In this document: piece by piece, positions 2,407-12,160 of the stretch
How positions within the stretch are numbered: position 1 is the first letter of the stretch
Layout of the letters: each line of letters begins with the position of its first letter
From: an uncultured Coprococcus sp.
GTDB lineage: Bacteria > Bacillota > Clostridia > Lachnospirales > Lachnospiraceae
DNA length: 12,160 bases
Direction of reading: 5' to 3'
NCBI GenBank assembly: GCA_900557435.1
Contig: USSH01000041.1
Coordinates: 1-12,160 of the forward strand
Translations under genes and position numbers: made by a program
Notes under the pieces: model-generated
The model's database searches: none
Seen by the model: the letters and a program-made list of their open reading frames with translations, nothing else
Told to the model about the DNA's origin: nothing

Positions 2407-2570
2407 GGGCCGAATGGGGACGGAGGTACCTGTCCCCTTTTGGGGAAATGTGTGAAAAACCGGTAAAAACGGGCCGAATGGGGACGGAGGTACCTGTCCC
2501 CTTTTGGGAAAATTCGCGAAAAACCGGTAAAAACGGGTCGAATGGGGACGGAGGTACCTGTCCCCTTTTG
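2407..2570 (+). repeat. Tandem 64-bp repeat array with GGGGAC...GTCCCC palindromes
   Basis: Three copies of a 30-base core begin at 2413, 2477 and 2541, exactly 64 bases apart. Each contains GGGGAC (2416-2421, 2480-2485, 2544-2549), the self-complementary AGGTACCT, then GTCCCC (2432-2437, 2496-2501, 2560-2565) and TTTTG. Spacers between cores are also largely conserved, sharing GAAAAACCGGTAAAAACGGG, so the unit is a true 64-bp tandem repeat of about two and a half copies, starting GGGCCGAAT at 2407. Each core folds into a hairpin followed by TTTT on the + strand, resembling a small terminator. From memory, GGGGAC/GTCCCC palindromes of this kind are scattered repeats in many clostridial genomes and behave like REP-type elements. 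No transposase is present here. Confidence 0.93.
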
Positions 2571-2624
2571 CAGGGAAAATGGCGGGGGGATATGTGAAAA
2601 TAGATTAAAATATTTATTTTTTTG

Positions 2625-2652
2625 TTGACATGATAAAGAGATATGATAATAT
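2625..2652 (+). promoter_or_regulatory. Candidate promoter of the acyl-CoA synthetase/thioesterase unit
   Basis: A consensus -35 TTGACA (2625-2630) and a -10-like TAATAT (2647-2652) are separated by 16 bases, preceded by an A/T-rich stretch with a run of Ts (2616-2623) like an UP element. A start near 2660 leaves a leader of about 210 nt before the ATG at 2873. Overlapping TATGAT and GATAAT hexamers (2642-2650) are too close to this -35. Confidence 0.55.
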
Positions 2653-2658
2653 ATGGAT

Positions 2659-2842
2659 GTAGTAATTGAAACTACGTGTAAAGTTAATTGAAGACGTAAA
2701 TCAAAGTAACGTTTATTTTGATTGCTAGATAAAATTACGAACTTAGAAGACTTTTTATACTAAGTTAATACGTAATGTGACAAGAAACGGCATGTATCGC
2801 TGATGCTAAGAGGCGGAAAAGTCGTTTTACCATATATATCAT
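2659..2842 (+). promoter_or_regulatory. Long structured 5' leader upstream of the acyl-CoA synthetase, unidentified
   Basis: This non-coding leader can form several hairpins. GTAGT/ACTAC (2659-2663/2671-2675) lies at the very 5' end. TCAAAGTAA/TTATTTTGA (2701-2709/2713-2721) is a 9-bp stem with one G-U and a 3-base loop. TTACG+AACTTAG / CTAAGTT+CGTAA (2735-2746/2760-2775) is a 12-bp stem interrupted only by a 4-base bulge. A weaker GCAT/ATGC hairpin and a GGCGGAAAAGTCGTTTT stretch follow before the ribosome binding site. I do not recognise a known riboswitch: no T-box AGGGTGGNACCGCG motif and no c-di-GMP, THF, ZTP or preQ1 core. It could be regulatory RNA or simply a structured AT-rich leader. 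Confidence 0.35.
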
Positions 2843-2872
2843 TAGAACTTATAGTTTATGGAGGAAATAAGA

Positions 2873-4549
2873 ATGTCAACAGAAATGAGACCAGAGCAGG
2901 GAATAGCAGGAAAGTTCGTGAGATCAGCACTTGATGAGAATGGAGTTCTCAGCAAGATAGAGTTCACCAACAGCGAGAAGTTCAACTTCGCATACGACGT
3001 AATGGATGCTCTGGCAGATAAGGAACCTGATCAGACAGCGCTCATCTATGTGTCAAAGGACAGAACAGTCGAGAAGAAATTCACATTCCAGGATATCAAG
3101 GATTATTCCAATAGAGCAGCAAATTACTTCAAGAGCCTGGGTATAAAGAAGGGTGACAAGGTGATGCTTGTGTTAAAGAGACATTACCAGTACTGGTTCA
3201 CCATGATGGCACTCCACAAGATCGGTGCCATAGCTATACCGGCGACAAATATATTAAAGGCAACAGATTATCAGTACAGAATTGAGGCAGCAGGTGTATC
3301 AGCGGTTGTGTGCACATCAGATGATGGGATCACAGCATCGATAGATACATTTGCGGATGACAAGCTGACAAAGATAGTTGTGAATCATCCTGCGGACGGA
3401 TGGAACTTCTTTGATGAGGGAATCATGGAGTGCAGCACTGAGTTCCCAAGGCCTACAGGTGAGGATGCCGTAGGAGGAAAGGACGACATACTGTTCGTCA
3501 TGTTCACATCGGGAACGACCGAGCATCCAAAGATGGTTGCACACAATCATCTGTACCCGCTTGGACATTACATCACAGCGAAATACTGGCACTGCAATAA
3601 GCCGGGTGAGGTTCATCTCACAGTTTCAGATACAGGCTGGGGTAAGGCACTCTGGGGCAAGCTTTACGGACAGTGGCTGTGCGAGGCGTGTGTATTTGTA
3701 TTTGACTTTGATACATTCAGCGCAGACACGATATTCAAGCTCATTGAGAAGTATCATATCTCAACATTCTGTGCACCTCCAACACTGTACAGAATCCTTA
3801 TCCGTATGGATATGAGCAAATACAACCTCTCGTCCCTCAGATACTGCACAACGGCAGGTGAGGCGCTTAACCCAGAGGTGTTTGATGTATTTAAGGAGAA
3901 GACAGGATTCACTATATATGAAGGATTTGGTCAGACAGAGACGACACTTACCATTGGAAACCTTGAGAATACAACTCCGAGACCGGGTTCAATGGGTAAG
4001 GCAAGCCCAATGTATGACGTGAGGATCATGAAGGCAGACGGAACATTTGCAGCACCTGGTGAGACAGGCGAGATTGTTATCAACATCGCAGACGGCGCAC
4101 CGGACGGACTGTTCATGGAATACTACAGGGATCCACAGAGAACAGCCGAGGTTATGCATGACGGTTTCTATCACACTGGTGATACAGCTTACCAGGATGA
4201 GGATGGATATTTCTGGTTCGTTGGACGTGTGGATGATATCATCAAGGTTGCAGGCTACAGAGTAGGACCTTTCGAGATAGAGAATGAGATCATGAGGATC
4301 CCTTATGTCCTCGAGTGTGCAGTTACATCAGTGCCTGACAGCACGAGAGGCCAGGCAATCAAGGCAACCATCGTTCTCACAGAGGGCACGGTTGGCGATG
4401 AGAACCTCAAGAAAGAGCTCAAGAGATACTTCAAGGAGAACATCGCAAGCTACAAGAGACCTAGAGTTATCGAGTTCGTTGATGAGATGCCAAAGACCAT
4501 CAGCGGCAAGGTAAGACGTGTTGAGATCAAGGAAAAGGACTGGAAGTAA
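2873..4549 (+). CDS. Acyl-CoA synthetase (AMP-forming), medium-chain (MACS)-like
   Basis: A 558-residue adenylate-forming enzyme: carboxylate + ATP + CoA to acyl-CoA + AMP + PPi, cytosolic. The start is the ATG at 2873, with GGAGG (2860-2864) 8 bases upstream. The in-frame ATG at 2858 overlaps that site and has none of its own. ANL-superfamily motifs occur in order: phosphate loop FTSGTTEHPK (211-220), SDTGWGKALWGKLYG (252-266) as in MACS enzymes, YEGFGQTET (349-357), YHTGD (433-437), GRVDDIIKVAGYRVGPFEIE hinge (451-470), and C-terminal PKTISGKVRR with the adenylation lysine K546. Length matches acetyl-/medium-chain synthetases (about 540-570). One oddity is E217 where this loop usually has Gly (TSGTTGxPK). 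The substrate is not determined by sequence; a short/medium-chain or aromatic acid is likely. A thioesterase gene follows after 22 bases, so the two are co-transcribed. Confidence 0.92.
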   Translation: MSTEMRPEQGIAGKFVRSALDENGVLSKIEFTNSEKFNFAYDVMDALADKEPDQTALIYVSKDRTVEKKFTFQDIKDYSNRAANYFKSLGIKKGDKVMLVLKRHYQYWFTMMALHKIGAIAIPATNILKATDYQYRIEAAGVSAVVCTSDDGITASIDTFADDKLTKIVVNHPADGWNFFDEGIMECSTEFPRPTGEDAVGGKDDILFVMFTSGTTEHPKMVAHNHLYPLGHYITAKYWHCNKPGEVHLTVSDTGWGKALWGKLYGQWLCEACVFVFDFDTFSADTIFKLIEKYHISTFCAPPTLYRILIRMDMSKYNLSSLRYCTTAGEALNPEVFDVFKEKTGFTIYEGFGQTETTLTIGNLENTTPRPGSMGKASPMYDVRIMKADGTFAAPGETGEIVINIADGAPDGLFMEYYRDPQRTAEVMHDGFYHTGDTAYQDEDGYFWFVGRVDDIIKVAGYRVGPFEIENEIMRIPYVLECAVTSVPDSTRGQAIKATIVLTEGTVGDENLKKELKRYFKENIASYKRPRVIEFVDEMPKTISGKVRRVEIKEKDWK

Positions 4550-4571
4550 GTCAGAAATCAGGTGAAGAAAA

Positions 4572-5030
4572 ATGATAGATATAGATATGAGTAAGATCAA
4601 GCCATATGAGAGATCGGTTTATTATTATGAAACGGACAGGATGCAGATAGTACACCACTCCAATTACATCAGATGGATCGAGGAGGCAAGGCTGGACTGG
4701 ATGACGCAGATAGGCTGGGATTACAAGTCCATCGAGGATGATGGATATATAATTCCTGTGCTCGGTGTGACGGCTGAGTATAAGAGCATGTGCCACTTCG
4801 GCGATGACGTGCTGATACATGTCAGCCTTTCGGAGTATACAGGTGTCCGCGTAGGCTTTTCATATGAGATCGTGGACAAGAAGACAGGCGAGCTCAGAAC
4901 ACTTTGTACAAGCTCACATTGTCTGCTGGATGGCAACAACAAGCTTGTGTTCATCAGAAAGGCATATCCTGAGCATGATAAGCTGTTTAAGGAGCTGCTT
5001 GAGGATTACAAGAAACGCCAGAGTAAATAA
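4572..5030 (+). CDS. Acyl-CoA thioesterase, hot-dog fold, YbgC/4HBT type
   Basis: A 152-residue cytosolic protein of the 4-hydroxybenzoyl-CoA thioesterase family, predicted to hydrolyse an acyl-CoA to acid and CoA. The signature is near the N-terminus: YYYETDRMQIVHHSNY (17-32), with the putative catalytic D22, H28/H29 and N31, followed by the helix IRWIEEARLDW (33-43). The rest alternates beta strands as expected of one hot-dog domain (for example VLIHVSLSEY and VGFSYEIVD), ending in a charged helix. Length is normal for YbgC-like enzymes (130-150). The ATG follows AGGTGA (4560-4565) with 6-base spacing. It lies 22 bases after the acyl-CoA synthetase and is followed by a terminator, so the pair forms a two-gene operon able to make and break a CoA ester, probably of the same acid. 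Substrate is unknown. Confidence 0.88.
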   Translation: MIDIDMSKIKPYERSVYYYETDRMQIVHHSNYIRWIEEARLDWMTQIGWDYKSIEDDGYIIPVLGVTAEYKSMCHFGDDVLIHVSLSEYTGVRVGFSYEIVDKKTGELRTLCTSSHCLLDGNNKLVFIRKAYPEHDKLFKELLEDYKKRQSK

Positions 5031-5086
5031 ACAGAGTTATTGTCTGGTTTAGAAATAATTTAATATTGTATTAATTGATGGTTAGT

Positions 5087-5132
5087 AATAGCTGGTAAAA
5101 TTGTTTATGTAACTTTTTTATCAGCTATTTTT
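5087..5132 (+). terminator. Rho-independent terminator after the thioesterase gene
   Basis: Arms at 5087-5100 (AATAGCTGGTAAAA) and 5116-5129 (TTTTATCAGCTATT) pair over 14 bp with a single G-U, around a 15-base loop. The right arm runs into TTTTT (5128-5132). Located 57 bases after the thioesterase stop, it ends the synthetase/thioesterase operon. Confidence 0.8.
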
Positions 5133-5185
5133 ATCTATTTAACCATGTAATCAGTTAAAACATCCTTTTTATATTATGGCGTAAA

Positions 5186-5194
5186 TGCTATAAT
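5186..5194 (+). promoter_or_regulatory. Extended -10 promoter of the GGDEF/EAL gene
   Basis: TGCTATAAT (5186-5194) is a perfect extended -10 (TGnTATAAT). A -35 at the right distance is poor (TTTTTA, 5166-5171), as often seen with extended -10 promoters. A start near 5200 gives a leader of about 50 nt to the TTG at 5252 and would leave almost no leader for the GTG at 5207, which helps decide the start codon. Confidence 0.6.
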
Positions 5195-5251
5195 GGAAAC
5201 GGTTGCGTGGGAATATATGGCAGGCTGGATGCTGCTGCAAGGAGGGATCTT

Positions 5252-8200
5252 TTGAAAGAGGTATCACTTGATAAAAAATACTACAAAGAACAGATACAAA
5301 ATATATTATATGATAATTATGTGAAGCTGGCGTTGGTCAACATTGATACTGGGGAGTATGTGAGTGTTATCAGCGTGGATAAAAATGCAGATGATTATAA
5401 AAGCATCACTGACGTATCCTCCTATTTTAAGGATAACAGGGGACTGGACTGCTGTCATCCTGATGAAGTCAGAGAATTTTCATATATGTGTGATATGAAG
5501 CATGTTAAAGCACTCATAGAAGCCGGAGCCAGATCGATCGTGCGTAATTTCAGATTCAGATTGAGGCTTGGTGAGGACTATGAGTGGGTTTCCATGGATA
5601 TAGAAGCTGAGAAAGAGCCGAGAGAGGACGGACAATGGGTTGTGTTCGGCATGAGGACAGTCAGCCTTGACACTCTGGTGCTGGAGGATAGCATCAGAAC
5701 ACTGACAAGGATATACAGACGTATATTCAGGATTGATGTGACTCACAATATTTGCGAGACATTGAGGGGCGGATATATAAGAAGCAGGGATGAGGTTAAG
5801 CATGACTGCCTTGGAGATTACATGAAAGACATGACTATGGGCGGTGAGATATTCCCTGACGATGTGGACAGGGTAAGTAGATGCCTGTCGCCTGAGTTCC
5901 TCACAAAATATTTTGCAAATGGACATGACAGATTTACCATTAGATATAAGCGCAAGATGGATATGGTGTACAGATGGGTGATGACTGAGGTCATACCTAC
6001 TGCTGACTATAGAGATGACCATAAGGTATTTTATCTTTATACGAGGGATATACATGAGGAGTATTCTGAGAGCATAGAGAAGCAGGAGCTGTTGGAATTT
6101 TACAGTTACAAGGACGCGCTCACTCATCTTGGCAATAGAAATGCATTTAACATTCTGTGTGACGCGTATGCAGACCGAAAGGACAAGCGGTCGGTCGGAT
6201 TCGTATTCAACGATGTGAACAAACTGAAGTATGTGAATGATCATTATGGACATAAAGAAGGAGATCTCTATCTTCAGAGGGTATCGCAGATGCTGGCGCA
6301 GCATTTTGGCGAAAATGCATGTTACAGGATAAGTGGCGATGAATTTGTTGTCATCATTATGGATATTACTGAGCAGTCGTTTAACTCAATGATCGCCAGA
6401 TACAAAGAGGTAATTGACGAGCAGGAGGAGGCTCCGGTTGCGTTCGGTGCAGTCTGGAAGGCTGAGGCTGATTCTATAGACAAGATAATGAACGAAGCCG
6501 AAAGACTGATGTATGAGGATAAGAAGAGATTCTATTCGAAACATCCTGAGGTCAAGAGGCGTGAGATCGTGGAGAACGAGGCGAATATAGCTGTAGGAAC
6601 TACAGAGGATGGAGTTCCGCATTATAGGAATCTTGGAAAGACAGACAGGATATTTGATGCCCTTGCAGCTACAACACTCAGAAATTATATATTTATGAAT
6701 GATCTCGATACGAATGTGACAAAATGGTCTGCCAGTGCGGTGGATTATTTTGGACTTCCGGGGCAATACATATATGACACACAGAAAGTGTGGAAGAATC
6801 TTATACATCCGGATGACAGAGCAATATTTGAACAGGATATTACAGAGGTATTTGCGGGGCGCAAAAAGTATCATGATGTAGAATATAGAATGAAAAACAA
6901 AAAGGGTGAATATGTGGTCTGTACCTGCAGAGGTTTCATCACCAAGAAGGAAAATGGTGATCCGGAATTCTTTGTAGGAACTGTCATAAACCACGGTGTC
7001 ATAGATGGAGTTGATCCGGTGACGAACCTGCACAATCAGCATGAGTATACCAAGTATATCTCTATACATTTGAGAAACAAGCAGACGATGAGCATTCTGG
7101 CAATAGGAATATCAATGTTTAACAGCATCAATATGATGTATGGATATGCATATGGCAATGCTGTTCTTAAGGATTTTGCCACAAAGCTCAAAAATGTCGT
7201 CGGTGGAAAGGGACTCGTATTCAGACTTGACGGAGCAAAATTTGCAATCTGCTCAAACATGTATACCAAACAGGAGCTCAAAGAGGTATATAGACATGTA
7301 CAGAATCTTGCACTTGATAATGTAGGTCTGAACGGCACATCGATCCCACTTAAATTGTACGGAGGTGGTCTGATATATGACCATGTAGGAGCCGATGAGG
7401 ATGTGATAAAGAGCAGTGTGGAATATGCCCTGGAGAGATCCAAGGAGGATCATCATGGTGAACTTGTATTCTTCAATGAGGAGATCAAGGACAATGATAG
7501 AATGAGGCTGCAGCTTTACAGCACAATACACAAATGTGTGGCAAACAACATGGAAGGCTTTTTCATGTGCTATCAGCCTATAGCCAATTCCGTGACAGGA
7601 CACATAGTGGGTATGGAGGCTCTTCTCAGATGGAAACATAAGGAATTTGGAGTGGTTCCACCGGGAATATTTATACCGTGGCTTGAGATGGAGCCGTGTT
7701 TCTTTGAACTTGGCAACTGGATAATAGAGCAGGCACTCACGGATGGTATGGAGATCCGCAAGATCAGACCTGATTTTGTGGTGAATGTCAATATATCAGC
7801 GACTCAGCTTGAGAATCATGGATTCAGGCAGGCTGTTGTGGATATATTAAAAAAGACGAAGTTCCCTCCTGAGTATTTGTGCATAGAGCTCACAGAGAGA
7901 TGTAAGAATATGGATATAGCATTTCTGAAAAATGAGCTGGAATATTTCAGGAAACTTGGAATAAAGATCGCTATCGATGATTTTGGAACGGGAAATGCTA
8001 CCTTAAATCTGCTCACGGAATTACCGATAGATGAACTTAAGGTCGATATGTCATTTGTCAGGGGCATACAGGAGAGCAAGCCTAATCAGGTCCTTGTACA
8101 GGCGGTTGTGTCATGTGCACATGAACTCGGATACAAGAGCTGCATTGAAGGTGTCGAGGACAAGGCGCTGTTCGATTACCTTCATAGGTATGGTTCCACT

Positions 8201-8263
8201 TACTATCAGGGATATCATTTCTCCAGACCGGTTTGTCTGGAGGATTTTAAGAAATTATTGTGA
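5252..8263 (+). CDS. Bifunctional c-di-GMP protein: GGDEF - PAS - degenerate GGDEF - EAL
   Basis: A 1003-residue protein with no signal peptide or membrane segment, so cytosolic. The start is a TTG at 5252, 6 bases after AAGGAGG (5239-5245). A longer in-frame GTG at 5207 has no ribosome binding site and lies almost on the promoter. Residues 1-285 contain two PAS-like sensory modules. The first GGDEF domain (about 286-430) has DALTHLGNR (288-296), NDVNKLKYVNDHYGH (320-334) and the signature SGDEF (361-365), so it may still make c-di-GMP. A PAS_3-type domain follows (about 465-581). A second GGDEF (about 588-750) is degenerate, with LDGAKF (659-664) in place of the signature. The EAL domain (about 770-1003) keeps EALLRW (789-794), NVNIS (845-849), ELTE (879-882), DDFGTG (909-914), K930, E966 and QGY (986-988), the expected phosphodiesterase metal and catalytic residues. 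It sits alone between its own promoter and terminator. Net activity cannot be predicted. Confidence 0.92.
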   Translation: MKEVSLDKKYYKEQIQNILYDNYVKLALVNIDTGEYVSVISVDKNADDYKSITDVSSYFKDNRGLDCCHPDEVREFSYMCDMKHVKALIEAGARSIVRNFRFRLRLGEDYEWVSMDIEAEKEPREDGQWVVFGMRTVSLDTLVLEDSIRTLTRIYRRIFRIDVTHNICETLRGGYIRSRDEVKHDCLGDYMKDMTMGGEIFPDDVDRVSRCLSPEFLTKYFANGHDRFTIRYKRKMDMVYRWVMTEVIPTADYRDDHKVFYLYTRDIHEEYSESIEKQELLEFYSYKDALTHLGNRNAFNILCDAYADRKDKRSVGFVFNDVNKLKYVNDHYGHKEGDLYLQRVSQMLAQHFGENACYRISGDEFVVIIMDITEQSFNSMIARYKEVIDEQEEAPVAFGAVWKAEADSIDKIMNEAERLMYEDKKRFYSKHPEVKRREIVENEANIAVGTTEDGVPHYRNLGKTDRIFDALAATTLRNYIFMNDLDTNVTKWSASAVDYFGLPGQYIYDTQKVWKNLIHPDDRAIFEQDITEVFAGRKKYHDVEYRMKNKKGEYVVCTCRGFITKKENGDPEFFVGTVINHGVIDGVDPVTNLHNQHEYTKYISIHLRNKQTMSILAIGISMFNSINMMYGYAYGNAVLKDFATKLKNVVGGKGLVFRLDGAKFAICSNMYTKQELKEVYRHVQNLALDNVGLNGTSIPLKLYGGGLIYDHVGADEDVIKSSVEYALERSKEDHHGELVFFNEEIKDNDRMRLQLYSTIHKCVANNMEGFFMCYQPIANSVTGHIVGMEALLRWKHKEFGVVPPGIFIPWLEMEPCFFELGNWIIEQALTDGMEIRKIRPDFVVNVNISATQLENHGFRQAVVDILKKTKFPPEYLCIELTERCKNMDIAFLKNELEYFRKLGIKIAIDDFGTGNATLNLLTELPIDELKVDMSFVRGIQESKPNQVLVQAVVSCAHELGYKSCIEGVEDKALFDYLHRYGSTYYQGYHFSRPVCLEDFKKLL

Positions 8264-8280
8264 TAAATTGTCCAATGGAC

Positions 8281-8323
8281 AAAGGCTGGTTCATTATTGT
8301 AAAAAGGGCCAGCCTTTTGTTTT
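8281..8323 (+). terminator. Rho-independent terminator after the GGDEF/EAL gene
   Basis: AAAGGCTGG (8281-8289) pairs with CCAGCCTTT (8309-8317), followed by TGTTTT (8318-8323). It lies 17 bases after the stop codon and separates this gene from the B12-regulated unit. Confidence 0.82.
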
Positions 8324-8366
8324 GCATATTTATGAGAAATAAATTGTCTTATATGTTTACATAAGG

Positions 8367-8395
8367 TTGACACCGGGCGCTGGCATTGTTAATAT
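8367..8395 (+). promoter_or_regulatory. Promoter of the cobalamin riboswitch transcript
   Basis: Consensus -35 TTGACA (8367-8372), 17-base spacer, and -10-like TAATAT (8390-8395). The start is predicted near 8402. The RNA would begin with a small hairpin, GGTGTGA (8402-8408) with TCACGCC (8416-8422), directly before the riboswitch P1 stem. Confidence 0.65.
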
Positions 8396-8422
8396 TGCTT
8401 TGGTGTGACCTTAGATCACGCC

Positions 8423-8585
8423 AGATATATAGTCCCGGAGATGTTCCGGCGAATGGATTATGGTGCAGCCGGAAAAGCTGTGGCCGTGTTCAATAAGAAG
8501 GGAAGTGCGGTGAGAATCCGTCGCAACAGCCATTACTGTATGCAGGGGAGTTCCCCTGTCAAGTCAGATCGCTTGCTATATATCT
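8423..8585 (+). ncRNA. Cobalamin (B12) riboswitch
   Basis: Conserved cobalamin-aptamer blocks appear in order: AAGGGAA (8498-8504), GGTGAGAATCC (8509-8519), CAGCCATTACTGTA (8527-8540, the ...ACTGT B12 block), and AAGTCAGATCGC (8561-8572, the AGYCAG block). A perfect 10-bp P1 stem closes the element: AGATATATAG (8423-8432) with CTATATATCT (8576-8585). A variable arm CAGGGG/CCCCTG with an AGTT loop (8543-8558) lies between the last two blocks, as expected. Other internal stems are visible, for example GCAGC/GCTGT (8465-8480). Binding of a cobalamin is expected to repress the gene at 8720. The ligand form (adenosyl- or hydroxo/methylcobalamin) is not decided here. Confidence 0.9.
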
Positions 8586-8686
8586 AATTCTTCGATAGAA
8601 GGGTATTTTGAAGCTTGTGATCTGAAATGCGGCGATGCGAATCAGAAATGTACAGATCCGTGGCAGGACACAAAGAATTCAATATG

Positions 8687-8711
8687 CCTTTCAGGGAAAA
8701 ATTGAAAGGAG
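8687..8711 (+). promoter_or_regulatory. Ribosome-binding-site hairpin (translation-control platform of the riboswitch)
   Basis: CCTTTCA (8687-8693) pairs perfectly with TGAAAGG (8703-8709) around the loop GGGAAAAAT. The right arm contains most of the ribosome binding site AAAGGAG (8705-8711), which stands 8 bases before the ATG at 8720. No T-tract terminator is seen between riboswitch and gene, so the likely mechanism is translational: the hairpin hides the site. How the aptamer state couples to it is inferred. Confidence 0.6.
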
Positions 8712-8719
8712 ATACGTTT

Positions 8720-11700
8720 ATGAGAAGAAGAATTCTTGCGGCATGTATGGCGATGTGCATGGCGGCAGCAACGGTTGTCACAAGCCCATGGGGCGGTGGC
8801 ATGACAGCGTATGCAGCGGAAGAGACCAAGACGATCACGGTCTCAGCATACGATTACACGGCAGTGGATGCCGGAATCGAGGGCGCCTCGAAGACAGGTG
8901 TCATCATGGAACAGACAGTCGAGGTGGATGCGGACACAACTACAGCGCAGGCTGTACAGAAGGCATTTGATCAGGCTGGTGTATCAGTTGAAGGAGTATC
9001 AAGCGGATATGTGAGCAGCATCAATGGGCTTGGCGCAGGTGTGGGATATTCAGGCTGGATGCTTGCCTATGACAATGACGACTATTCAAACTGGGGAATG
9101 AGCAGCATAGCCCTCAGCGATGGAGACAGCCTCAGATTTGATTATACATGCAACGAAGATAAGACGACCGATGATATCGGAAATGGCTACTACGGCAATC
9201 CGTATGTGAAGACACTCACAGTTGCAGGTCAGACATTCAATATGTCAAAGAATACGACATTTGATGCGAACTACAACATGACAAATACTTACTATATAAA
9301 TGGTGAGGAGACAAAGGCAGCAGGTACAGAGGAAGATCCTTTTGTATTTGAGGTTTCTGTCCCTGCAAATGAGGCTCAGTCCGCATATATCACCATGGAT
9401 ACAAGTCTCAACAGCCACTATGCAGTGATCGATGGATGGTCTGTTTCAAAGGAGACTTATGATATAACAAATGGTCTTGATTTCTCAGTTTCTTCATTAG
9501 GTGGAAAGTACAAGTCATATTTCACCATCAAGACAGATCTCAAAGCAAACAACACATCTGACTCCTACAAGGAGATGCTTGACAGTTCGATCAAGTATAT
9601 AAGAAATACAGTCAAAGAGGCCGAGGTTGGTTCTATAGGTGGAGAGTGGGCAGTTCTCGCTCTTGCCAGATATGGATATGAGGATCCAGAGTGGTACACA
9701 GCATATTACAACAATGTTGTAAAGTATGTTCAGAATATAGGAAGCAATAAGCTTCACTCACGCAAGCTCACAGACAACTCACGAGTTATCATTGGTCTTA
9801 CAGCAATTGGCGCAGATCCTACAAATGTAGCTGGCTACAACCTTCTTGAGCCACTTGCAAACCTTGAGGATGTTGTATGGCAGGGAATAAATGGTCCTAT
9901 ATATGCGCTCATCGCTCTAGATACAGGTGATTATGAGATTCCTGAGCTTCCGGACGACAGCACAGCTACACAGACAACAAGAGAGGGACTTATCCAGTAC
10001 ATACTTGACAATGAGATCCCAGGTAGCGGCGGATGGGCTCTGTGGGGCTCAAAGGCTGATCCTGACATCACGACAATGGCTGTTCAGGCTCTTGCACCAT
10101 ATTACAATACAAATGCCGATGTAAAGGCAGCGGTAAATCGTGGAATGAAGGCTATATCTGATCAGCAGTTATCAAATGGTGGCATGGGCTCATGGGGAAC
10201 CGTAAACTCAGAGAGCTGCGCTCAGACAGTATGTGCGCTTTCTGACCTTGGAAGAGATGCTGACACAGATCCACAGTATGTAAAGAACATGAATTCTATT
10301 CTTGATGCAATGCTTTCCTTCTATATTGATGGAGGCGGATTTGCACATGCAGCACAAAATGGAAAACTTTCAGTAAACATGATGGCTACAGAGCAGGCAA
10401 CATATGCTCTCGTATCATATGACAGATTTAAGACAGGAAAGACAACTCTCTACAACATGAGCGACAGAAAGAAGCTTTACACAGAGAGCGCAGAGAAGAA
10501 GTCAGTTGAGAAGGCGAATGTAACAGTTGCTGATTTTGGTCTTGTATATGACGGAACAGTAAAGGAGCCTAAGGTCACAGTTAAGTATGGTGACATTCTC
10601 CTCACAGAGGGCGTTGACTATACAAAGGAATACAGCAACAACGTAGAGGCTGGAAACACAGCAAAGGTAACTATCACCGGTATGGGTGATTATGAGGGTC
10701 AGATAGAGAAGACATTCTCGATCTACTCAGCAGAGATAGAGGCAGCAGATGTCGCCATCGACCAGACAGTATTTGTTGCAGATGGAAAGGTTAAGAAGCC
10801 AAATGTGACAGTCACACATGTAGGCGAGACGCTCAAGGTAAATACAGACTACACACTTGCATTTGCAAACAATGTACTTCCTGGCAAGGCAACAGTTACA
10901 GTCACAGGTAAAGGCAAATATACTGGTAAGGTTGTAAAGCATTACACATTAAATGCAACACATATTTCAAAGACAGACATTACAGTTTCAACAGAGGAAT
11001 ATGTGACAGACGGAACAGAGAAGACACCAGCAGTCAGTGTAGCATATAATGGCAAGACACTCAGAGCCGGTACAGATTACTCAGTAAGCTATATTGACAA
11101 CGTAAACGCAGGAACAGCAAGCGTGAAGATCACAGGACTCAAGTACTACTCAGGTTCAGTTGAGTATACATTTGAGATCAAGGCGATTGAGCTGACTGAT
11201 GCAGTTGTGACAGTTGACACAGACGATATCGTTGCGGACGGCAGCAAGAAGACACCTACAGTAAATGTAACACTTGGAGATACAGTTCTTGAGGCTGGCA
11301 AGGACTTCACAGTTTCATATTTCAGCAATGTGAAGGTTGGAACAGCGAAGGCCACAGTAACAGGAATTGGAAACTATACAGGAAAGATCAAGCAGGCATT
11401 TGAGATCAAGGATGGTAAGACAGAGATAACAGCAGCTTCACTTGAAGAGGGAGTTGTAGCACTTGAGTGGAAGGCTGTAACGGCAGCTGATTCATATGCT
11501 GTATACAGAAAGGCTGAGAGCGAGAGCGAATTTGCAAAGATTGCAGAGACAGAGAAACTTAGCTACAGTGATAAGACAGCAAATGCCGGAGTATCATATG
11601 AGTATGAGGTAAGACCTGTTGTTGGAAAGTCATTTGGAAGCTCAGAGGCAGTTAAGGTGGCAGTACTTGCAGTACCTGCAGCAAAGCTTACAAACACAAA

Positions 11701-12160
11701 GGCTGGCATCGAGGTAACATGGAGCGCATCAGCAAATGCTGACAGCTATGTGGTACTTAGAAAGACTGGAACATCAGACACATGGGAGAAGATAGCAGAC
11801 ATTGCTAAGACAACCTATGTTGATAAGAATGTAACAGAGAAGACAGTTTACACATATGCAGTACAGGCTGTATCAGAAGCTGGAACATCAGCATATACAG
11901 GCAAGAGCGTGACAAGAAAGACTCCTATCACAACACTTGCAACACCGACAGTTACACTCAGCAATGCAAACGCAGGAGTGACACTGAAGTGGAACAAGGT
12001 AACAGGTGCTAAACAGTATGTTGTTTACAGAAAGGCCGGAAATGCCAAGGCATGGACAAAGGTTGCCACTGTTAAAACACTCTCATATGCTGATCGTCAG
12101 GTTAAGTCTGGAGTTAAGTACACATATGCAGTTAAGGCATCAGGAGATTATGCTATATCT
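8720..12160 (+). CDS. Secreted DUF4430 / alpha-toroid protein, putative surface cobalamin-capture protein (C-terminus beyond window)
   Basis: An open frame from the ATG at 8720 to the window edge (1147 codons, no stop). AAAGGAG lies 8 bases upstream. Residues 1-32 are a Sec signal peptide (MRRR, hydrophobic core, AYA before A33). Residues about 36-145 fit DUF4430, related to the transcobalamin/intrinsic-factor beta domain: SGYVSSINGL (95-104), YSGWMLAYDND (110-120), LSDGDSLRFDY (132-142). Residues about 160-275 are beta-rich. Residues about 280-585 form an alpha/alpha-toroid like terpene cyclases and intrinsic factor, with helical repeats such as GGEWAVLALARYGY (307-320), WQGINGPIYALIAL (387-400), GGWALWGSKADPDITTMAVQALAPY (437-461, key residues GGW and DPDIT), NGGMGSWG (486-493) and MATEQATYAL (555-564). 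Four beta repeats (598-896) and three FN3-like domains (899 onward) make a stalk. With the B12 riboswitch upstream, the inferred role is binding cobalamin outside the cell. No cell-wall anchor is seen; it would lie past the window. Confidence 0.88.
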   Translation, partial: MRRRILAACMAMCMAAATVVTSPWGGGMTAYAAEETKTITVSAYDYTAVDAGIEGASKTGVIMEQTVEVDADTTTAQAVQKAFDQAGVSVEGVSSGYVSSINGLGAGVGYSGWMLAYDNDDYSNWGMSSIALSDGDSLRFDYTCNEDKTTDDIGNGYYGNPYVKTLTVAGQTFNMSKNTTFDANYNMTNTYYINGEETKAAGTEEDPFVFEVSVPANEAQSAYITMDTSLNSHYAVIDGWSVSKETYDITNGLDFSVSSLGGKYKSYFTIKTDLKANNTSDSYKEMLDSSIKYIRNTVKEAEVGSIGGEWAVLALARYGYEDPEWYTAYYNNVVKYVQNIGSNKLHSRKLTDNSRVIIGLTAIGADPTNVAGYNLLEPLANLEDVVWQGINGPIYALIALDTGDYEIPELPDDSTATQTTREGLIQYILDNEIPGSGGWALWGSKADPDITTMAVQALAPYYNTNADVKAAVNRGMKAISDQQLSNGGMGSWGTVNSESCAQTVCALSDLGRDADTDPQYVKNMNSILDAMLSFYIDGGGFAHAAQNGKLSVNMMATEQATYALVSYDRFKTGKTTLYNMSDRKKLYTESAEKKSVEKANVTVADFGLVYDGTVKEPKVTVKYGDILLTEGVDYTKEYSNNVEAGNTAKVTITGMGDYEGQIEKTFSIYSAEIEAADVAIDQTVFVADGKVKKPNVTVTHVGETLKVNTDYTLAFANNVLPGKATVTVTGKGKYTGKVVKHYTLNATHISKTDITVSTEEYVTDGTEKTPAVSVAYNGKTLRAGTDYSVSYIDNVNAGTASVKITGLKYYSGSVEYTFEIKAIELTDAVVTVDTDDIVADGSKKTPTVNVTLGDTVLEAGKDFTVSYFSNVKVGTAKATVTGIGNYTGKIKQAFEIKDGKTEITAASLEEGVVALEWKAVTAADSYAVYRKAESESEFAKIAETEKLSYSDKTANAGVSYEYEVRPVVGKSFGSSEAVKVAVLAVPAAKLTNTKAGIEVTWSASANADSYVVLRKTGTSDTWEKIADIAKTTYVDKNVTEKTVYTYAVQAVSEAGTSAYTGKSVTRKTPITTLATPTVTLSNANAGVTLKWNKVTGAKQYVVYRKAGNAKAWTKVATVKTLSYADRQVKSGVKYTYAVKASGDYAIS
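10511..11407 (+). repeat. Four tandem beta-repeat units inside the secreted protein
   Basis: Protein residues about 598-668, 672-744, 748-821 and 823-896 are four diverged copies of a roughly 75-residue unit (about 225 bases). Shared features are an opening D/E-rich strand with V-x-DG or YDG, a K-x-P turn, V-T-V strands, D-Y/F-T-x-x-Y/F, N-N/S-V-x-x-G, A-x-V-T-V/I-T-G, and a closing Y-x-G-x-(I/V)-x-K/E-x-F/Y. Such units are common in lachnospiral surface proteins, where they act as spacers or adhesive stalk. Copies are clearly diverged at protein level, so this is an old duplication. Confidence 0.85.
11414..12160 (+). repeat. FN3-like tandem domains at the visible end of the secreted protein
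   Basis: Three FN3-like domains follow the beta repeats: residues about 899-983, 984-1067 and 1068-1147 (cut by the window edge). Each has the core pattern L/V-x-W-x-x-x-x-x-A-x-x-Y-x-V-Y/L-R-K (WKAVTAADSYAVYRK, WSASANADSYVVLRK, WNKVTGAKQYVVYRK) and a final Y-x-Y-x-V strand (YEYEV, YTYAV, YTYAV). They probably extend the protein from the cell surface. Confidence 0.85.

Follow-up and report, generated by a model that had tools for sequence, protein, structure and literature searches.

Burroughs et al. 2007 (PMC1796856) predicted, in the sections considered here, that proteins of Gram-positive bacteria that join an SLBB domain to an alpha/alpha toroid scavenge vitamin B12. The toroid may precede or follow the SLBB domain, and joint B12 binding by the two was regarded as likely. 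A second SLBB protein is often encoded in the operon, CbiO/CbiQ-like genes occur in the same predicted operons, and the hosts usually lack key enzymes of B12 synthesis. In this study, we analysed a window of 12,160 nucleotides (the whole stretch, in whose numbering coordinates are given) from an uncultured Coprococcus species. Its last part carries a cobalamin riboswitch followed by a gene for an apparently exported protein with a DUF4430 domain, a toroid and a stalk. The results suggest that this gene probably opens an operon for corrinoid uptake under B12 repression, in which a two-domain corrinoid carrier is combined with an energy-coupling factor (ECF) importer.

Like the SLBB-toroid proteins in those sections of the 2007 paper, the window protein has a signal-peptide-like N-terminus, an SLBB-toroid fusion, extra extracellular domains and a predicted role in B12 scavenging. 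Here we read DUF4430 as the counterpart of the transcobalamin clade of SLBB domains in that work, on the basis of fold and name. A second SLBB protein and CbiO/CbiQ-type (ECF) genes are likewise present, in this case in L043, the syntenic counterpart of the window locus in a congeneric genome (G304). Unlike the systems as described there, an unanchored first protein stands beside a second one tethered by a transmembrane (TM) segment. Since the 2007 prediction already covers both domain orders and B12 scavenging, the locus is an instance of a predicted kind. The words riboswitch and CbrT do not occur in the main text of PMC1796856, and no literature linking DUF4430 or transcobalamin-like surface proteins with B12 riboswitches was found by title or start of abstract, in a search outside which most subscription papers lay. 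As far as we searched, the new elements are the riboswitch link with its controls, an S component that resembles CbrT, and the pairing of an unanchored with a tethered protein.

Mammalian intrinsic factor (IF), transcobalamin (TC) and haptocorrin (HC) differ from the window protein, in which the beta domain comes first, an extra beta domain lies in between, a long stalk follows, and binding is predicted. According to the part of PMC5997447 considered, the S component of ECF systems is itself the substrate-binding protein, and import of cobalamin and cobinamide was demonstrated for ECF-CbrT of Lactobacillus delbrueckii (6FNP). L043 shares with ECF-CbrT a homologous S component (E 8e-7 to 6fnp_A) and an ECF module; unlike in ECF-CbrT, two ATPases are fused to its S component, which is accompanied by extracellular DUF4430 proteins. 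The surface B12-binding proteins of gut Bacteroides, as described in part of PMC6143338, likewise capture B12 outside the cytoplasm, but they are lipoproteins of Gram-negative cells. The locus also bears on the proposal, made in the same sections of PMC1796856, that animals obtained their B12 carriers from Gram-positive bacteria.

Riboswitch and encoded protein

The leader of the gene holds a genuine cobalamin riboswitch of Rfam clan CL00101, as the original prediction had claimed for a cobalamin riboswitch, though its Rfam score stays below cut-off. The aptamer spans 8423–8585 on the forward strand, on which all features of the locus lie, and was delimited from RF01482, the covariance model R1, the predicted fold and P1 pairing. 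At relaxed threshold, RF01482 (adenosylcobalamin) matched 8484–8616 with 34.8 bits; with E 0.0023 over the whole window, this was the best of four matches at E ≤ 1. No riboswitch match in the window reached Rfam gathering level, which is 50 bits for RF01482. Helix P1 is a perfect 10-bp pairing of AGATATATAG (8423–8432) with CTATATATCT (8576–8585), which is present in the minimum-energy fold and is missed by the RF01482 alignment. R1 was built from five relatives that each scored over the RF00174 cut-off, with the window excluded. It matched 8476–8577 with 51.9 bits and an E-value of 6.5e-8, R1 E-values being rough. The same model gave 81.2 bits in the nearest relative (G304), 66.7 at the locus of G305 and 61.0 at that of G306; it models the nearest riboswitch subgroup only and was weak (16.8 and 11.6 bits) on two Rfam-strong riboswitches of a further relative, L004.

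Alignment with L043 and the predicted fold showed an extra insert of about 40 nt between P2 and the core of the window aptamer (8452–8491, ends approximate). The insert is absent from L043 and lies inside a predicted additional hairpin, and the rest of the leader is mostly identical between the two. The low Rfam score is likely explained by P1 lying further upstream and by the extra nucleotides that split P2 from the core. The insert can be only part of the reason, since the insert-free riboswitch of L043 also falls just below the RF00174 cut-off (29.2 against 31.5 bits). Chance was considered as the source of this score of about 29 bits and was dropped in view of the R1 score of the same site. 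Upstream of the aptamer, a consensus scan found a promoter-like pair at 8367–8395 (10 of 12 positions matching), with TTGACA at 8367, a 17-nt spacer and TAATAT with TG before it; this TTGACA is also the start of the interval marked in the original prediction. Promoter-like sites on both strands of 8250–8740 numbered 5, against a mean of 1.2 in shuffles, which by itself is no evidence of function. No intrinsic-terminator-like site was found in 8250–8740.

The gene (8720–12160) continues beyond the window end, as judged from the open reading frame and a complete relative. ATG 8720 is likely the start codon, with the ribosome-binding-site-like AAAGGAG (8705–8711) 8 nt before it; the start of the longer open reading frame at 8627 was set aside in its favour. 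The proposed order of signal peptide, DUF4430, toroid and long stalk was recovered. The N-terminus resembles a signal peptide (8720–8818; MRRR, a hydrophobic stretch and AYA, with the cleavage site placed by eye), and in the near-identical protein of the relative residues 4 and 5 each begin a TM-like hydropathy window. It is followed by the DUF4430 or transcobalamin-like beta-grasp domain (8822–9160; PF14478, 30.0 bits against a cut-off of 23.8), a second beta domain (9182–9541; strands at model residues 129–241), and the alpha/alpha toroid (9542–10441), which has the squalene-cyclase/prenyltransferase fold seen in IF and TC. The stalk (10442–12160) consists of beta repeats recognised by eye and FN3-like modules, with FN3 and GH85_C matches under cut-offs in the window protein or the relative.

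Because a sequence-only search of solved structures gave no IF or TC match to the DUF4430-toroid part, the link to these carriers had to be sought by fold comparison. An AlphaFold2 model of 558 residues, built with a 44-row alignment, reached a mean predicted local distance difference test (pLDDT) score of 92.2 and a predicted template modelling (pTM) score of 0.81. The top fold matches of the predicted beta-grasp domain were IF, TC and HC, with a clear gap after them and sequence identities of 14–22%. The suggested kinship of the beta domain with IF and TC thus held at the level of structure. The toroid is present in the model and its fold matches agree; Pfam gave no toroid call in the window protein. 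Residues D443, D445 and T447 of the toroid (alignment query numbering) are invariant, and we take them to be reminiscent of the DxDD site of class II terpene cyclases. No NCBIfam model was found for the window protein, and a scan of viral contigs returned no relatives.

Gene context in relatives

L043 shows what may follow the window end. DNA identity between the two is 94–95% over 2477–8263, 8307–8451 and 8492–12160, and 86% over 547–2505. The main protein is complete in L043 (1253 residues from the corresponding ATG, about 106 of them past the window end, DNA 94% identical). It contains a single sortase-like pattern, which is internal, and no SLH domain by Pfam at E ≤ 0.01. The next gene on the same strand encodes a 373-residue protein with a DUF4430 domain (70.8 bits) at its C-terminus, behind a single N-terminal TM-like segment and a repeat stalk rich in Thr and Ser. 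Then follow, on the same strand, a CbiQ/EcfT protein and a 961-residue fusion of two ABC ATPases with an ECF S component. For the S part (262 residues), 6fnp_A was the sole PDB match at E ≤ 1, and it was likewise the best PDB match of the S component of another relative, L006 (E 4.5e-5). In the region past 12160, where the original prediction had proposed a search for an anchor and transporter genes, L043 carries an ECF transporter whose S component resembles CbrT, and no anchor of the main protein was recognised. The original prediction of a main protein held at the surface was not supported, and the membrane tether was found on the neighbouring DUF4430 protein. Behind the ECF fusion gene, two genes at 18008–19935 of L043 presumably encode two proteins, one cysteine-rich and YkgJ-like, the other of the radical-SAM type (BioB/HydE-like), and genes similar in sequence by eye follow in loci L046 and L047.

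A protein match was obtained in each of the five congeneric genomes (G001 and G304 to G307). At E ≤ 0.01, every one of them has a single match to the cobalamin riboswitch, that of G304 being below cut-off, and each riboswitch match sits at a DUF4430 locus. In G304, G001, G307 and G306, the riboswitch heads a same-strand run that includes ECF genes and a gene for a DUF4430 protein; in G001 the fused ATPase-S gene was identified by eye only. DUF4430 and toroid are within a single protein in G304 and G001, and in G306 a DUF4430 protein of 2246 residues adjoins a separate toroid protein. CbiD, the only B12-synthesis enzyme looked for, was found in none of the five, and B12-binding enzyme domains were found in all. 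One such protein of G304, cut by the end of the stretch, combines S-methyl_trans and Pterin_bind with both B12 domains, the set found in methionine synthase. The locus is a riboswitch-marked B12-capture candidate in Coprococcus relatives, three of the five congeners examined giving no match to a FecCD-type (BtuC-family) permease; G304 and G305 have one each. The FecCD transporter of G304 was considered as an alternative B12 route and set aside. It lies between MobA-like and molybdopterin-dehydrogenase genes, so that molybdate is the likelier substrate.

The wider family was surveyed in a sample of 299 genomes, in which a threshold of E ≤ 1e-20 gave 81 matches in 56 genomes, mostly to the toroid. 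Riboswitch association was counted as an RF00174 match upstream of the protein match, on the same strand and within 12 kb. It was observed for 41 of the 81 matches, in 32 of the 56 genomes, where riboswitch number and genome size would predict 0.35; the controls gave 3/81 downstream and 3/81 on the opposite strand. The tie of homologues to cobalamin riboswitches, on which the original prediction could be judged, was recovered in the family sample as well as in all five congeners. An RF00174 match is present somewhere in 44 of the 56 toroid-bearing genomes. EcfT (PF02361) lies within 6 kb downstream of 29 of the 81 matches and upstream of 2 (expected 0.25); within 12 kb, the figures are 32 and 5 (expected 0.51). 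Absence of CbiD among toroid-bearing genomes is common, not universal.

Domain order was counted by eye from rows sharing contig, strand and open-frame length. DUF4430 precedes the toroid in at least nine frames among the matches listed (G001, G050, G076, G103, G112, G163, G181, G188 and G194), and the toroid comes first in at least seven (G033, G045, G104, G187, G195, G251 and G290). Both orders are about equally frequent among the matches listed, so the DUF4430-first order is ordinary in the bacterial family. The presentation of the locus as a little-studied B12-capture system of reversed order was therefore overstated, all the more as order and scavenging appear in the 2007 sections cited above. 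A separate contig scan for relatives returned six loci, with a riboswitch within the stretches examined in three: L004, L006 and L001, the last being the locus of G001. L004 carries two tandem cobalamin riboswitches at 668–1263 (66.1 and 69.5 bits), which precede a frame of at least 1772 residues matching the beta domains of the window protein.

Proposed function and rival explanations

Corrinoid capture by the DUF4430-toroid protein is very likely. This view draws on both folds, as seen in the predicted models, on the riboswitch and its genomic contexts, on the shared direction of the L043 genes and on the homology of the S component to CbrT. At low cellular cobalamin, the riboswitch would permit expression, presumably of a single transcript. 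After export of the protein, its beta-grasp domain and its toroid would jointly clasp a corrinoid as in TC and IF, in the reverse domain order. The corrinoid may then be handed from protein to protein, to the membrane-tethered DUF4430 protein and on to the ECF importer with its CbrT-like S component.

Several observations weigh against this uptake operon. The transporter was seen in the relative L043, with none in the window itself. No terminal sortase-like motif and no second TM-like window was found in the full-length L043 protein. The riboswitch of G305 precedes a DUF4430 protein of 2094 residues (33.4 bits) in which no toroid was detected, and the toroid, small DUF4430 and ECF genes of that genome lie about 630 kb off, where no riboswitch was found. 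The first protein of G307 carries a toroid, and neither Pfam nor direct comparison found DUF4430 in it; only the neighbouring protein carries DUF4430 (68.4 bits). Of the 56 toroid-bearing genomes in the survey, 24 show no upstream riboswitch: 12 are without any RF00174 match, and the other 12 carry theirs elsewhere. Among the 41 positives, the one in G194 depends on a sub-cut-off match. CbiD is present in 16 of the 60 toroid-bearing genomes checked. The closest folds of the toroid are squalene-hopene and drimenyl cyclases, with IF about 5 Z units lower.

The toroid could be an extracellular enzyme, terpene-cyclase-like or glycan-active, with DUF4430 and stalk serving for attachment. We consider this very improbable. 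Against it speak the exported look of a protein with a transcobalamin-type domain, the cobalamin riboswitch and the CbrT-like S component in the gene run of the relative, and the same toroid fold serves IF and TC as carriers (PMC1796856, sections as above). An adhesin or structural surface protein under incidental B12 control would suit the long FN3-like stalk, and many homologues among the matches listed (n=120) come from Paenibacillus and bear names that refer to S-layer homology domains. This explanation is very improbable, however, given that the riboswitch association is directional and far above chance, that the sole riboswitch match in each of the five congeners sits at such a locus, and that transporter genes lie within the same gene run in L043. 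Another corrinoid or a precursor, such as cobinamide or pseudo-B12, could be the preferred ligand, a variant within corrinoid uptake and not exclusive of it, which we hold to be a real possibility short of an even chance. CbrT takes up cobalamin and cobinamide (PMC5997447, in the part considered), and cobamides are diverse in structure, as described in parts of PMC9600662 and PMC7733943. None of the present results discriminates between these ligands, and absence of CbiD is compatible with salvage of a late precursor.

Within the proposed uptake operon, a more tentative and rather doubtful idea is that the unanchored first protein could be a freely secreted corrinophore, which would deliver distant corrinoids to the tethered DUF4430 protein as a receptor that loads the ECF importer. 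If true, an ECF transporter, of a class in which the S component itself binds the substrate, would here be served by a relay outside the cell, and transcobalamin with its receptor would have a counterpart in bacteria.

Neighbouring features of the window

Between a thioesterase-like gene and the B12 locus, the window encodes a GGDEF-PAS-EAL protein of 1018 residues (5207–8263), of a type associated with cyclic di-GMP turnover. G304 has a counterpart of this gene in the same position, and in G306 the end of such a gene is found upstream of the riboswitch. At 2407–2598, a 64-nt unit occurs three times head to tail between iron-only hydrogenase-like and acyl-CoA synthetase-like genes; over the whole unit the second copy is 94% and the third 61% identical to the first, and an inverted repeat (2328–2382) adjoins them. 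The iron-only hydrogenase-like protein (592–2046) has 4Fe-4S domains and an Fe_hyd_lg_C match of 198.6 bits, and a similar N-terminus was seen by eye in upstream genes of L043, L045 and L047.

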